A DNA stretch of 47,554 nt from Roseomonas sp. (lineage in GTDB: Bacteria > Pseudomonadota > Alphaproteobacteria > Acetobacterales > Acetobacteraceae). Of the stretch, positions 24,266-28,292 are shown piece by piece. A program made the position numbers and the translations under genes. Positions within the stretch are counted from its first letter, which is position 1. Every line of letters starts with the position of its first letter. Below the pieces are notes generated by a model. It was not told the origin of the DNA. It searched no databases and worked only from the letters and a program-made list of their open reading frames with translations. The stretch is taken from positions 1-47,554 of the forward strand of contig JADCFP010000124.1 in the NCBI GenBank assembly GCA_020249465.1. Reading direction: 5' to 3'.

Positions 24266-25146
24266 GAGAAAATCAGCGCCGCGCCGGCGGCGTATTCGGG
24301 CGGGACCATGATGCCCTCCGGCGCTTCCCGTGTTGGGATGCCGGCCAGGATGCGCCGGGCAGAAGCCCCGCCATCGCCAGTGCGCACCACCATCCCGGCC
24401 ATGAAGGGGGAAGCCGGCGGCACCACGCCGGGCAGCACAGCGGCCAGCCCTTCAGGTGTCAGCACCCGTACACGGGTTTCAAGCGCCGGCGCTTTCGGCC
24501 CGGCAGCGCGCGCCGCCCCGGGCAGGCGGAGCAGAAAGCCCCCCGCCGGGTCCGGTTCAACCGGCAGGCCGGCAAGGCGCGAAAGCCGTGCGGCGGTCTC
24601 GGCCGGGTTTTCCGCGCTTAGAATGGCCGCTTCCAGGGTCTCGGCGCGATTGGCGTGATCCATCCAGCGATCCTGCCAGACCAATTCGGGGGTGAGATGC
24701 CGGATCAATTGCACCCGACCCTCGGGCGGGTCCGGGAAGGGCAGGCGGGCAAAGCGCGCAATCGGACCGCCCGCTTCTACAGGTCGTTCCAGAAAGGCAA
24801 CGCCTGGAATATCAAGCCCCGCCGCGCGCAGGCGGTTCAGGTTTGCATCCTCATCTAGCATGGCGAGTGCCAGGATATGCACCCCCGCATAGCGCGCCAG
24901 AAAGGCATTCAGGTTATTGTCAAACAGCGCCGGGTCCAGAATGGCAATCAATTCGATATAGCCGTGCTTGAGGAACGCGCAGCGATTGCCAGAGCCGTAT
25001 TTTTCCACCGGCAGATCAGGCCGCCGCCGCCCGCTTTGCTGCGCGATGGGCGACAGCGTGAAGCCGAGCCTTTCATAGGCCGCGCACATCGGCGCCAGAT
25101 CGCGTGCGGCGACGCCGAGATGGTCAAGGGCAAGGGCGGTATTCAT
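24262..25146 (-). CDS. Glyoxalase-like (Glyoxalase_3/VOC) protein
   Basis: 294-residue protein with one clear vicinal-oxygen-chelate module at the N-terminus (LDHLGVAARDLAPMCAAYERLGF, then GNRCAFLKHGYIELIAILDP and VHILALAM) and a C-terminal part that is probably a degenerate second module. His10 and the Glu of YIELI fit metal-binding positions of the fold. It overlaps gst and fkbM by 4 bp each. Function unknown; the neighbours hint at processing of electrophiles or glutathione adducts. Confidence 0.82.
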   Translation of the reverse strand: MNTALALDHLGVAARDLAPMCAAYERLGFTLSPIAQQSGRRRPDLPVEKYGSGNRCAFLKHGYIELIAILDPALFDNNLNAFLARYAGVHILALAMLDEDANLNRLRAAGLDIPGVAFLERPVEAGGPIARFARLPFPDPPEGRVQLIRHLTPELVWQDRWMDHANRAETLEAAILSAENPAETAARLSRLAGLPVEPDPAGGFLLRLPGAARAAGPKAPALETRVRVLTPEGLAAVLPGVVPPASPFMAGMVVRTGDGGASARRILAGIPTREAPEGIMVPPEYAAGAALIFS

Positions 25147-25799
25147 GCGGGATTCTCATAACGATCAAGCAACCACTCAGCGGGCTCAGCCGCTGCTTCA
25201 TCATACCAGCGTGCGACCAAAGGATGCGCGCGCACGGCGGCCATGTAGTGCTGCGTGGTTGCGGAAAGCTCTGGCTGCCAGGTGATGAAACGCGCCACCA
25301 CCGGCGCATACATGGCATCCACCGCGCCAAAGTCTGCGCCCATCAGAAACGGGCCGCCATGGGCTGCGATGGCTTCCGCCCAAATCGCTTCCACCCGTGC
25401 GATATCGGCAAGCGATTCCGGCGTGCGGCCGCGGCCGGGAAAGCTGCGGCCCAAATTCATCGGCATGGCGATGCGCAGATTGCGAAACCCGGCATGCATC
25501 TCGGCCGCGATGGACCGCGCATGGGCGCGTGCGGCGCGTTCTGCCGGCCAAAGCTTGGGTGTGATTTCGGCGCAATATTCGCAGATGGCCAGGCTTTCCC
25601 AGATCCGCGCGCCGCGATGTTCCAGATAAGGCACCAGACCGGCGGGAGTTGCGGTTTTGAGTGCCGAGGTGCCGCCCCCGCCAGCGAGGGGGATCATCAC
25701 CTCCTCCACATCAAGGTCGGCCAGATGCACGGCAAGCCAGCCACGCATGGACCAGGAAGAATAACGCTTGGTGCCGATGACAAGCCGGCCTTCGGGCAT
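25143..25799 (-). CDS. Glutathione S-transferase family protein
   Basis: 218 residues. The thioredoxin-fold N-domain starts LVIGTKRYSSWSMRGWLAVH, where the SSWS region holds the catalytic Ser/Cys position; TPAGLVPYLEHRGARIWESLAICEY is the cis-Pro and glutathione gamma-Glu binding segment; the C-domain is helical. ATG 25799 has AGGAGG about 8 nt upstream and is chosen over a TTG seven codons further up. First gene of a tight three-gene operon. Confidence 0.92.
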   Translation of the reverse strand: MPEGRLVIGTKRYSSWSMRGWLAVHLADLDVEEVMIPLAGGGGTSALKTATPAGLVPYLEHRGARIWESLAICEYCAEITPKLWPAERAARAHARSIAAEMHAGFRNLRIAMPMNLGRSFPGRGRTPESLADIARVEAIWAEAIAAHGGPFLMGADFGAVDAMYAPVVARFITWQPELSATTQHYMAAVRAHPLVARWYDEAAAEPAEWLLDRYENPA

Positions 25800-26001
25800 G
25801 GGGGGATCCTCCTGCAACAAACCACGGGATTATGCCCTGAGCGGCGGTGAAGGGAAACTCAGCGCCTACGCCACCCCTTTTCCGCCCGCGCCAATGCCTC
25901 AGCACGCAGTGAAACCCGCCGATTGCTGTGAAAGAACCGCACACGAAGATGGGGGATTTGGTGCTCACGAATGATTTTTCGGCGGGGGCTCTCAATAAGG
26001 C

Positions 26002-26145
26002 GTGATTGCTGAGCGGAAGGCGATGATCGACTGTGAGCACGCCCTGCCTCTGGCGCAACAGGCCAAGGCGCTCAGCTTTAGCCGTAGGACGCTCTTCGAC
26101 GTCTCTCGCCCGGTTTCGCCGGCCGGTCTGGCATTGTTGCGCCAG
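26002..26145 (+). pseudogene. IS3-family transposase OrfB N-terminal remnant
   Basis: From GTG 26002 the frame encodes about 48 residues: ERKAMID, then HALPLAQQAKALSFSRRTLF and RPVSPAGLALLRQ. This matches the start of IS3-group OrfB, where a serine-rich helix-turn-helix and PVS-ADLALMRRID precede the DDE domain. After LLRQ the similarity stops and no DDE motif follows. No OrfA or terminal repeat was found on the left, so this is a short relic marking the left side of the island. The stretch 25800-26001 holds nothing else recognisable. Confidence 0.7.
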
Positions 26146-26195
26146 TGTCCGTTGTCAAATCAGCTAACGACGGACATGCACTGTTTTTTCTCACA

Positions 26196-26225
26196 TTGCT
26201 ATGAAGGAACGTTTTTGAATATAAC
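26196..26225 (+). promoter_or_regulatory. Putative promoter of the cytochrome/PCS-like operon
   Basis: TTGCTA (26196-26201) and TATAAC (26220-26225) are 18 nt apart, in a locally AT-rich stretch 34 bp before the cytochrome ATG. Each box matches the sigma-70 consensus at four or more positions. Confidence 0.4.
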
Positions 26226-26258
26226 TGGGCGAGGAAAATGATGGGGAGTACGTGTTAA

Positions 26259-26621
26259 ATGAGAAAAGCTTTTGGTCACTTGGCTACAAAATCCAATGCG
26301 ATTTTGATGATGATTTTACTGTGCCTGGGGCTGCTTGCACCGGTGGCCATGGGGCAGACCCAGCCTATCGCTCTACCCAATACTGTTGAGCAATGCATGG
26401 CGTGTCATGATCCCATGGGGAAGCCTGAAGATACCAATTTTCCGATTATCGGCGGCCAATATGCCGAATACCTGGCGAATGCGCTGCGCGCCTATCAAAA
26501 TGGACTTTGAACTGGGGCAAGTGCTGAGATCATGAGCAACTTCCTCCAGGGGCTTAACCTTGATGAAGAATCAATCAAAGAGCTTGCGAATTTCTTCTCT
26601 TCCTTGAGGCCACGTCGATGA
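26259..26621 (+). pseudogene. Exported small c-type cytochrome, interrupted by an in-frame stop
   Basis: Reads as a 120-codon gene with one TGA at codon 84 (26508-26510). It has a signal peptide (hydrophobic 14-32, cleavage near AMGQ), the haem site CMACH, the FPIIGGQYAEYLANALRAYQNG segment of single-haem class I cytochromes, then after the stop, still in frame, TGASAEIMSNFLQGLNLDEE with the expected axial Met, ending LRPRR. CGA to TGA is the simplest origin of the stop. A truncated product would keep the haem site but lose the Met ligand and last helix. GGGGAG lies 10 nt before the ATG. It overlaps the next gene by ATGA. Confidence 0.75.
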
Positions 26622-27320
26622 AAAGACGCCTTTGCCGTTTTCTTGCGGTTCTTGTCCTCCTTCTTCCTTTAGCTGCGCGCTCTGAGATTATTGCTCTCGA
26701 TTCGGCTGAGGGAGCGGCGCGTTTTCAGCGCCTCGCCGATACTCGCAGCGCGCTCAGCCTGCTGTCGCACCTTGAAACTGAGATTTACCTCACCTTCTGC
26801 GGACCAGCTTCCTTGGCAACGGCACTCAACTCCCTTGGGGTTCGCGACCCTTCACCGGCCGCTTTTTTCCCCGTATCGGCGCCTCACCCAAGATTCGCTC
26901 TTCACTGAGCAGAATTTGCGGATCAAGCCTTTTGCCGCGGTTCAGTCCAGCGGGCTGACGCTTGAGCAACTTGGAGCTTTCGCAGGCAATCTTGGTGTTG
27001 AGACACAATCCCTGCACGCGGAAGACCTGGAAATCCTGGGATTGCGCGAAAAGTTATTGATGGCGTTGCGAGAGCCGAATACGCGTATACTCGTAAACTA
27101 CTCACGCATTCCCTTGGACCAAGAAGGAGACGGGCATATCTCTCCGCTGGCAGCCTATGATGAGGCCAGTGATAGCGTCCTTGTCCTTGATGTCGTGCGC
27201 TACAAGTATTCTCCTGTCTGGATACCCATCGATAGTCTTTTTGCGGCCATGCAGCGGGTTGACCCGGACGCAGGCAGATCGCGCGGGTTACTGTTTCTCA
27301 AGCTGAGAGGACAGCCATGA
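26618..27320 (+). pseudogene. Exported phytochelatin-synthase-like peptidase, frameshifted
   Basis: Phytochelatin synthase family (papain-like transpeptidase acting on glutathione). A signal peptide (LAVLVLLLPLAARS) implies periplasmic location. The catalytic Cys is in FCGPASLATALNSLG; the His and Asp are in GDGHISPLAAYDEASDSVLVLDVVRYKYSPVW. The first part reads from ATG 26618 and the rest in the +1 frame; the switch lies near the homopolymer T6C4 (26863-26872), where one extra base would explain it. Repaired length is about 234 residues, i.e. the N-terminal catalytic domain only, as in other bacteria. GAGG sits 8 nt ahead of the ATG. It overlaps both neighbours by 4 bp. Confidence 0.78.
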
Positions 27321-27853
27321 GCGACAATCTCCGGCAGAAGGGGCCGGCCGATCCTTCAGATGAAGCGGTTGATGACTTCACGGCAATGGCACGCTTGCTT
27401 TATGGCAGCAGCGCGCTGCCTGACTTCGTCGAGGAATTGCCGGATTTTGTCATTGAAGCGGCAAGACTCCTGTTGATCCAGGAATTCGGTAGTGGCAGCG
27501 ACACGGAGGCTGTCCTGGCCGCTCTGGAGGCCTTTGAGGCGGGGCCATGGGGCCGAAAATACCCGGCCATCGCGCAAACCTGGCGCCGACATTGGGACCA
27601 GGTGATACCGTTCTTTGCGTTCAGCCCGCCGATACGCCGGATCATTTACACAACGCATGCGATCGAGGCCTTGAATTCGAAGCTCCGACGGGCGGTGCGC
27701 ACGCGTGGCTATTTCCCGGGTGACGACGCGGCGATGAAGCTCCTATACCTTGTTCTCGATCGGGCGGTCGAAGCATGGAAGCGACCGCCGCGCGAGTGGT
27801 GCGAGGCCAAGACCCAGTTCGCCATCCTGTTCGGCGATAGGTTCGTGGTCTGA
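27317..27853 (+). CDS. Chimeric ORF: unknown N-terminus fused to IS256 transposase C-terminus
   Basis: 178 residues. Residues 1 to about 63 (MSDNLRQKGPADPSDEAVDD..., acidic and helical) match nothing I recognise and belong to the operon: AGAGGA precedes the ATG and the start overlaps the PCS-like stop by ATGA. From about residue 66 on, AALEAFEAGPWGRKYPAI, RRIIYTTHAIEALNSKLR, TRGYFPGDDAAMKLLYL and QFAILFGDRF are the C-terminal third of an IS256-family transposase. The original third gene has therefore lost its 3' end to the insertion sequence, with the frame kept by chance. Any product would not be an active transposase. Confidence 0.7.
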   Translation: MSDNLRQKGPADPSDEAVDDFTAMARLLYGSSALPDFVEELPDFVIEAARLLLIQEFGSGSDTEAVLAALEAFEAGPWGRKYPAIAQTWRRHWDQVIPFFAFSPPIRRIIYTTHAIEALNSKLRRAVRTRGYFPGDDAAMKLLYLVLDRAVEAWKRPPREWCEAKTQFAILFGDRFVV

Positions 27854-27893
27854 TGGTCGAAACAGACCCTGCGCACAAGATTATGGATAGGGC
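27510..27893 (+). mobile_element. IS256-family remnant, 5' truncated, right end present
   Basis: It holds the C-terminal part of the transposase plus, after its stop, a right-terminal inverted-repeat-like sequence (GCGCACAAGATTATGGATAG at 27871-27890). The left end and the N-terminal two thirds with the first catalytic Asp residues are missing, so it cannot move on its own. The right end lies about 4 bp from the gloA stop codon. The left limit is approximate. Confidence 0.75.
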
Positions 27894-27896
27894 CGA

Positions 27897-28292
27897 TCAG
27901 GCGCGTTCGATCAACTCAATCTTGTAGCCATCCGGGTCTTCGATGAAGGCAATCACGGTGGTGCCGAATTTCACCGGCCCCGGTTCGCGCGTGATCTTCA
28001 CACCGGCAGCGCGGAGCGTGTCGCAGGTCGCGGTCACATTCGGCACGCCAACGGCCAAATGCCCAAAAGCTGTGCCGAGTTCGTATTTCTCGACGCCGTA
28101 ATTATAGGTGAGCTCAATCACGCCTGCGCCGGTTTCCTCCCCGGCGTAGCCCACAAAGACCAGCGTATATTTGCCATCCGGCACATCGCGCCGGCGCAAT
28201 TCCTTCATGCCGAGAAGACGCGTGTAGAAATCAACGCTGAGGTCCAGATTGCCGACGCGCAGCATGGTATGCAGAAAACGACCTTGGCTCAT
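27897..28292 (-). CDS. gloA: Lactoylglutathione lyase (glyoxalase I)
   Basis: Isomerises the methylglyoxal-glutathione hemithioacetal. The 131 residues match Glo[23 protein letters not shown] (His8), VIELTYNYG (Glu), [11 protein letters not shown] (His) and YKIELIE (Glu), the four metal ligands of the Ni-type enzyme. It is the last gene of the envelope operon, overlapping lpxI by 4 bp; an IS256 remnant ends a few bases past its stop. Confidence 0.94.

Follow-up and report, generated by a model that had tools for sequence, protein, structure and literature searches.

The DNA analysed here is a 47,554-nt contig of Roseomonas sp. (JADCFP010000124.1; the window), one of the 162 contigs into which a 4.07-Mb genome was assembled. 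Its plus strand carries, at 26259-27505, three linked genes: one for a cytochrome c, one for a protein of the phytochelatin synthase (PCS) family (PF05023), and a fragment of a small-protein gene. They are probably the 5' end, no longer functional, of an operon that encoded a periplasmic flavin adenine dinucleotide (FAD) dehydrogenase of the GMC family and the direct-electron-transfer (DET) type together with a PCS-family enzyme of its own. At the level of sequence, the intact order was shown to be multicopper oxidase (in most copies), cytochrome c, PCS-like protein, small subunit with a twin-arginine translocation (Tat) signal, GMC subunit with a 3Fe-4S motif, and (in most copies) a protein resembling the major facilitator superfamily (MFS).

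Intact copies of the operon

A total of 56 PCS loci were compared by script, with only about 1.5 kb on either side for 20 of the 36 non-operon loci and for a 3.5-kb contig. A cytochrome gene adjoined the PCS gene in 20 loci and was missing from 36. In 19 of the 20, genes for the small subunit and the GMC dehydrogenase were also present; at the Neoroseomonas soli locus the contig ends after the PCS gene. The core order elsewhere was cytochrome c, PCS-like protein, small subunit and GMC dehydrogenase, and the 20 loci came from at least five alphaproteobacterial families. Five were in same-genus genomes (the same-genus relatives include N. oryzicola, G022, and N. soli, G016), 14 in genomes assigned to four further family codes (genus counts 8, 4, 1 and 1), and one on a Salipiger plasmid. 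Chance adjacency of the cytochrome c and PCS genes was rejected on the strength of these 20 loci.

An earlier note on this DNA, made from its letters alone, had named intact copies in other taxa as what would define a system, and the 20 loci with cytochrome c directly before the PCS-like gene are such copies. The note knew of no described system with this gene set. Among the literature matches listed, no title or abstract joined PCS with a GMC or DET dehydrogenase, most subscription journals being outside the coverage. Four of the listed papers mention PCS, multicopper oxidase, cytochrome c and a gene cluster; judged by their titles, their subjects are cyanobacterial metals, yeast, anthozoans and a salt lake.

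The PF05023 profile matched 7 of 99 genomes (the window's own and relatives), including its own, and 6 of 35 same-genus genomes, again including its own. Carriers made up 12 of 398 genomes in a draw from the phylum, 20 of 385 from the class and 7 of 299 from the order; these draws overlap, and all three contain the window's own genome. In the orders of other carriers, the counts were 11/61 and 9/248 for two carriers and 1/43 for a third. Both window pieces and the operon PCS copies found by profile search exceeded the PF05023 cut-off. The Salipiger copy came from a tblastn search and annotation: five of 20 matching plasmid records were examined, and the operon was present in one, plasmid NZ_CP014600.1 of Salipiger sp. 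CCB-MM3, where genes 3 and 4 are annotated as 'sugar dehydrogenase complex small subunit' and 'GMC family oxidoreductase'. In the relative G005, the genes were intact and were followed by those for a 138-aa small protein and a GMC oxidoreductase, with flanks different from those of the window.

A multicopper oxidase gene lay upstream in 15 of the 20 loci, and eight of the nine products with a readable N-terminus began with a twin-Arg motif. By tblastn, the five Neoroseomonas stretches gave no match for a multicopper oxidase. Among the Neoroseomonas copies, those of N. oryzicola, G021 and N. soli had a SulP-type transporter gene immediately upstream; in G011 it was farther off, and in G005 it was not seen. 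Downstream, a membrane-protein gene with an MFS-like look was present in all 11 of the multicopper-oxidase loci read at length. Three of these proteins scored for PF07690 (MFS) under the cut-off, and the Salipiger copy scored nothing.

ATC hydrolase (PF14196) was rejected as a core gene, being present only in G684 and G1099 among 16 loci examined. In one genus, two of five genomes have a PF14196 gene downstream of the six-gene cluster (L093:11518-12018, from the Pfam run, and L132:12322-12807).

Dehydrogenase subunits and a proposed electron path

All 15 of the operon GMC proteins read whole (of 19) had the 3Fe-4S cysteine motif and the FAD-linking His. In these features, as in having a Tat small subunit and a cytochrome c, the operon is like the FAD-glucose dehydrogenase of Burkholderia cepacia (BcGDH) and the fructose dehydrogenase (FDH) of Gluconobacter, which are of the same GMC family. 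Unlike BcGDH, the same 15 proteins had Ile and Ala at the positions of the catalytic His476 and of Asn475, respectively; Asn519, the partner of His476 in catalysis, and His105 were kept, and a new invariant His was found nearby. The operon also differs from BcGDH and Gluconobacter FDH in its one-heme cytochrome (102 aa in Salipiger, 120 aa in G005), where those enzymes have a three-heme subunit, in the inserted PCS-like gene, and in the multicopper oxidase and MFS-like genes that most copies add. Genes 2 and 4 of G005 looked constrained, with ratios of nonsynonymous to synonymous substitution (dN/dS) of 0.10 and 0.09 against N. oryzicola in a comparison close to saturation.

Six other plasmid GMC proteins, drawn from the best 12 of 201 records matching below 60%, were also read. 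Five kept the His476 equivalent and that of Skermanella did not. The Skermanella mucosa plasmid (L142:2355-6229) is like the operon in joining small subunit, GMC protein and multicopper oxidase and in the changed His476 position; unlike the operon, it has no annotated PCS-like or small cytochrome gene, and its GMC protein is 42% identical.

Sequence and a structural model identified gene 3 as the 'hitchhiker' subunit of DET-type FAD dehydrogenases. A twin-Arg start was seen by eye in 18 of the 19 operon small subunits, G005 being without it, and the fold of the family matched those of the FDH and BcGDH small subunits (Foldseek).

In the mechanism that we propose, the small subunit would carry the folded GMC subunit through Tat. 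Electrons taken from the substrate by FAD would reach the one-heme cytochrome c by way of the 3Fe-4S cluster; the cytochrome would then hand them to the multicopper oxidase (O2) or, for Neoroseomonas, to the respiratory chain. The papain-fold PCS-like enzyme, with Glu for the oxyanion Gln, would process the same substrate or its product in the periplasm, or, less likely, the complex itself.

Several results weighed against this interpretation. The window contains no GMC gene, and its membership of the operon rests on the relatives. The 20 loci span only six genera, with 17 of them in three. The Foldseek E-values (0.07-0.99) were weak and the model was middling (pLDDT 66). Only one of 13 small subunits matched PF12318, and a search of PDB sequences with a small-subunit profile recovered neither the FDH nor the BcGDH small subunit, nor anything else credible. 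Both intact cytochromes read whole (G005 and Salipiger) had a single CxxCH instead of three hemes. The Tat start was absent from the small subunits of G005 (L011:10049-10462) and the window (27317-27505), which leaves export of the dehydrogenase there unexplained. The part assigned to the PCS-like protein is inferred from position and residues alone. If the assignment holds, it would add to the DET dehydrogenases a type whose active site differs, and the operon gives testable partners for the PCS-like and GMC enzymes.

The PCS-like enzyme and its oxyanion position

Like the PF05023 protein alr0975 of Nostoc (NsPCS), the operon PCSs are of the one-domain form, with the catalytic Cys-His-Asp and the second-site Arg, Lys and Tyr. 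The catalytic residues were present in 20/20 operon copies (in the window they are spread over two frames), and the Cys-Arg-His-Asp-Lys-Tyr set was likewise retained in all 20. Positions in NsPCS were anchored by motif, with the numbers of its catalytic triad.

Unlike NsPCS, the operon proteins had Glu six residues before the catalytic Cys. Glu was found in 20/20 operon PCSs and Gln in 36/36 others (NsPCS and 35 non-operon loci), and no other alignment column was invariant among the operon copies with a residue differing from that of at least 90% of the rest. The window protein also had Glu here (LETEIYLTFCGPAS). The Gln at this position is the oxyanion-hole residue, given as Gln64 of NsPCS, Gln50 of AtPCS1 and Gln19 of papain in PMC3855540.

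One orphan, G758 (Glu, internal TAG), was set aside from this count. This operon-type PCS (L094:898-1518) lies 0.9 kb from a contig end and had no cytochrome or GMC match within the 8 kb examined; it is a second decayed copy. Apart from this broken orphan, the Glu-type proteins are encoded beside dehydrogenase genes.

In a first tree of 57 rows, the operon PCSs and G758 did not form one clade; three label changes were needed, and long branches met. The tree was rebuilt after 23 of the 57 rows (18 long-branch and five near-identical operon rows) had been dropped, and the operon PCSs and G758 then formed one clade (99/98). This suggested that the change from Gln to Glu was probably one old event, and that the 20 cases are not independent.

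Bacterial relatives of PCS, which fall in peptidase family C83 (PF05023), have usually been linked to the chemistry of glutathione or of metals (PMC10318531). The operon PCSs do not have the oxyanion Gln; therefore, ordinary glutathione cleavage cannot be assumed for them. The thiol or metal handling proposed in the earlier note was not supported; the copies showed a four-gene GMC dehydrogenase core with a PCS-like protein that lacks the Gln common to the 36 others. We infer a new chemistry, or a role in maturation, for the PCS-like enzyme. Tentatively, the Glu-type PCS and the His-less dehydrogenase, set in a periplasmic chain of FAD dehydrogenase, cytochrome and multicopper oxidase, might carry out a hitherto undescribed coupled acyl transfer (or hydrolysis) and oxidation of a thiol or amide compound. 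The Gln19Glu mutant of papain reportedly has an engineered nitrile hydratase activity, and by analogy one may speculate about nitrile chemistry. A Glu clade in a redox-enzyme operon would suggest that the PCS fold has been recruited for another reaction.

The protein may instead be an ordinary periplasmic hydrolase of glutathione (or a conjugate) that is co-transcribed with a dehydrogenase for nutrient-thiol scavenging and tolerates Glu at the oxyanion position, a role we consider doubtful. Retention of the six-residue set agrees with it, as this includes residues named for the NsPCS second-substrate cavity in PMC3855540, and on a Pantoea plasmid a Gln-type PCS adjoins a gamma-glutamyltransferase. 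However, the position was Gln in every other PCS compared, and no other column had a fixed difference in the operon copies. The AtPCS1 Q50N mutant (Asn, not Glu) was inactive (PMC3855540), and no core operon gene is a known glutathione gene, the flanks being partly annotated.

A role as maturation or assembly factor of the dehydrogenase complex, with, for example, a thiol or peptide in one of the subunits as its target and no small substrate, appeared unlikely. The gene position is consistent with it, PCS being immediately behind the cytochrome in all 20 loci and, in 19, ahead of the small subunit, as are the active-site changes that both the PCS-like and the GMC protein carry and that most of the compared relatives lack. 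On Gluconobacter, Pantoea and Azospirillum plasmids, however, the stretches shown contained related dehydrogenases but no annotated PCS, and no conserved cleavage site was identified, although none was searched for.

Copper or metal handling, with thiol chemistry by the PCS-like protein, a CueO-like multicopper oxidase and the dehydrogenase as a passenger, was judged improbable. The multicopper oxidase is upstream in most loci and its best NCBIfam match was indeed CueO, but far under the cut-off (123.7 vs 525), and the five Neoroseomonas stretches gave none. The Skermanella plasmid pairs the small subunit and GMC protein with a multicopper oxidase without PCS, and this points to an electron-accepting role for the oxidase.

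Decay and borders of the window copy

The features of the remnant and its surroundings are given in Table 1. As the earlier note had read them, the three same-strand frames were joined by two 4-bp ATGA overlaps (26618-26621 and 27317-27320), and the first two encode a cytochrome c with CMACH and a PCS-like protein, both with signal-like hydrophobic N-terminal segments (judged by eye, with no signal-peptide program). The promoter-like boxes that it had also described were not recovered, a scan of 25800-27950 giving no sigma-70-like site.

Table 1. Features of the operon remnant and its borders, in window positions
Feature	Position	Strand	Basis or remark
GST gene	25143-25820	minus	left neighbour of remnant
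Left limit of collinearity with G007 and G005	25839..25840	.	window alignments end at 25839 in both
IS3-family transposase relic (left border), tentative identification	26002..26169	+	tblastn
Cytochrome c pseudogene, signal-like N-terminus, CMACH	26259..26621	+	frame reading; G005 similarity
Phytochelatin-synthase-like (PF05023) pseudogene	26618..27320	+	PF05023 on both pieces; G005 similarity
5' fragment of dehydrogenase small ('hitchhiker') subunit gene	27317..27505	+	G005 gene 3 similarity; junction at 27506
IS256-family 3' relic	27506..27894	+	right end 27894/27895; Transposase_mut, aligned IS copies
Right limit, start of conserved chromosomal block (glyoxalase, lpxI)	27895..27896	.	alignment to relatives
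Glyoxalase gene	27897-28292	minus	right neighbour; name assigned by sight

The decay that had been suspected was borne out. The cytochrome gene contained a single in-frame TGA at 26508-26510. Over 120 aa, it shared 72.5% identity with its intact counterpart in G005, which itself scores 20.8 bits for PF00034, slightly below the cut-off of 21.3. The PCS gene was split over two frames by a frameshift between about 26855 and 26876. Both pieces matched PF05023 (E 1.3e-6 and 9.9e-39) and G005 (87% and 76% identity), and the Cys, His, Asp and oxyanion-position Glu remained readable.

The third open reading frame (27317-27853), whose MSDNLRQKG start had been taken for an unknown third gene, was a chimera: its first approximately 63 codons are those of the small subunit (56% identity to G005 gene 3, in an alignment that extends beyond the IS256 junction), and the rest, read in frame up to 27853, is IS256 transposase. 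A new family was therefore rejected. The small-subunit fragment had no Tat signal. Transposase_mut begins at residue 61 (E 4.5e-25), and the relic is truncated, with an NCBIfam score of 72.7 against a cut-off of 150. IS256 copies of three relatives aligned with the window from 27506 to 27894/27895, and further matches were found in the window's own genome and in six of seven relatives searched. A move of the GMC gene (gene 4) to another place was also considered; a search of the window's own assembly, made without a positive control, gave no match.

We propose that in the window lineage one stop codon and one frameshift would have disabled the operon, and that a deletion or rearrangement would have fused gene 3 to the IS256 end, with loss of the remainder of gene 3 and the whole of gene 4. 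Between the window and G005, dN/dS was 0.10-0.14 for the PCS and small-subunit pieces (about 0.10 and 0.13 for PCS) and 0.41 for the cytochrome. The pieces thus look mostly constrained, and the loss looks recent; the window would be an example of how such an operon was lately lost at a junction associated with insertion sequences (IS). That the operon is functional and the damage an error of sequencing or assembly is very improbable, since a single stop and a single frameshift in a 162-contig assembly could be errors, but the sharp IS256 truncation of gene 3 and the absence of GMC from the assembly are not point errors.

The remnant had been described as bounded by IS relics on both sides. The right one stood, as shown above by Transposase_mut and the aligned copies, whereas the left one is tentative. 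A 56-aa stretch at 26002-26169 resembled plasmid sequences in 796 records (tblastn); among the 14 matches listed, four were annotated as IS3 family transposase, one as hypothetical protein, and nine were unannotated. Distant DNA similarity was found in 79 records, and a Pfam search of the reading frame gave no match.

Between 25839 and 27895, the IS-bounded remnant joins two chromosome blocks that were not found together in eight relatives. The right block was matched from query position 36 (27895) in seven of the eight and from position 47 in G005. The GST (left) and glyoxalase (right) blocks were on separate contigs in seven of eight relatives, which cannot count as proof where assemblies are fragmented; in G025 they shared a contig, with 139 kb between them. 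Among 29 relative loci examined, some of which were cut by contig ends, none had a glyoxalase match at a distance of about 1.5 kb or less from GST. As conserved DNA resumes at 27895, left collinearity ends at 25839, and the blocks are apart in relatives, the remnant most likely lies at the junction of a rearrangement.

The gene pieces of 26259-27490 were richer in AT than their flanks, as had been noted: GC was 49-57%, against 58-66% in three neighbouring genes, and GC at third codon positions (GC3) was 0.53-0.62 against 0.69-0.72. The operon genes of G005 were similar (GC3 0.54-0.57), nearby genes having 0.69-0.84 in this comparison; the PCS and GMC genes of N. oryzicola had a GC3 of 0.86-0.91. 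The low GC3, together with the presence in only six of 35 same-genus genomes, suggested a foreign origin of the operon. Of the horizontal arrival and decay supposed in the earlier note, the decay has been seen above; as the operon is AT-rich, patchy in the genus and differently flanked in G005, the arrival is plausible, though not proved.

G005 also carries, at L011:417-6006, five similar same-strand frames of about 250-330 aa, all ending in RA(D/E)EVIE. These form a tandem array of related genes with, by sight, the look of substrate-binding proteins.
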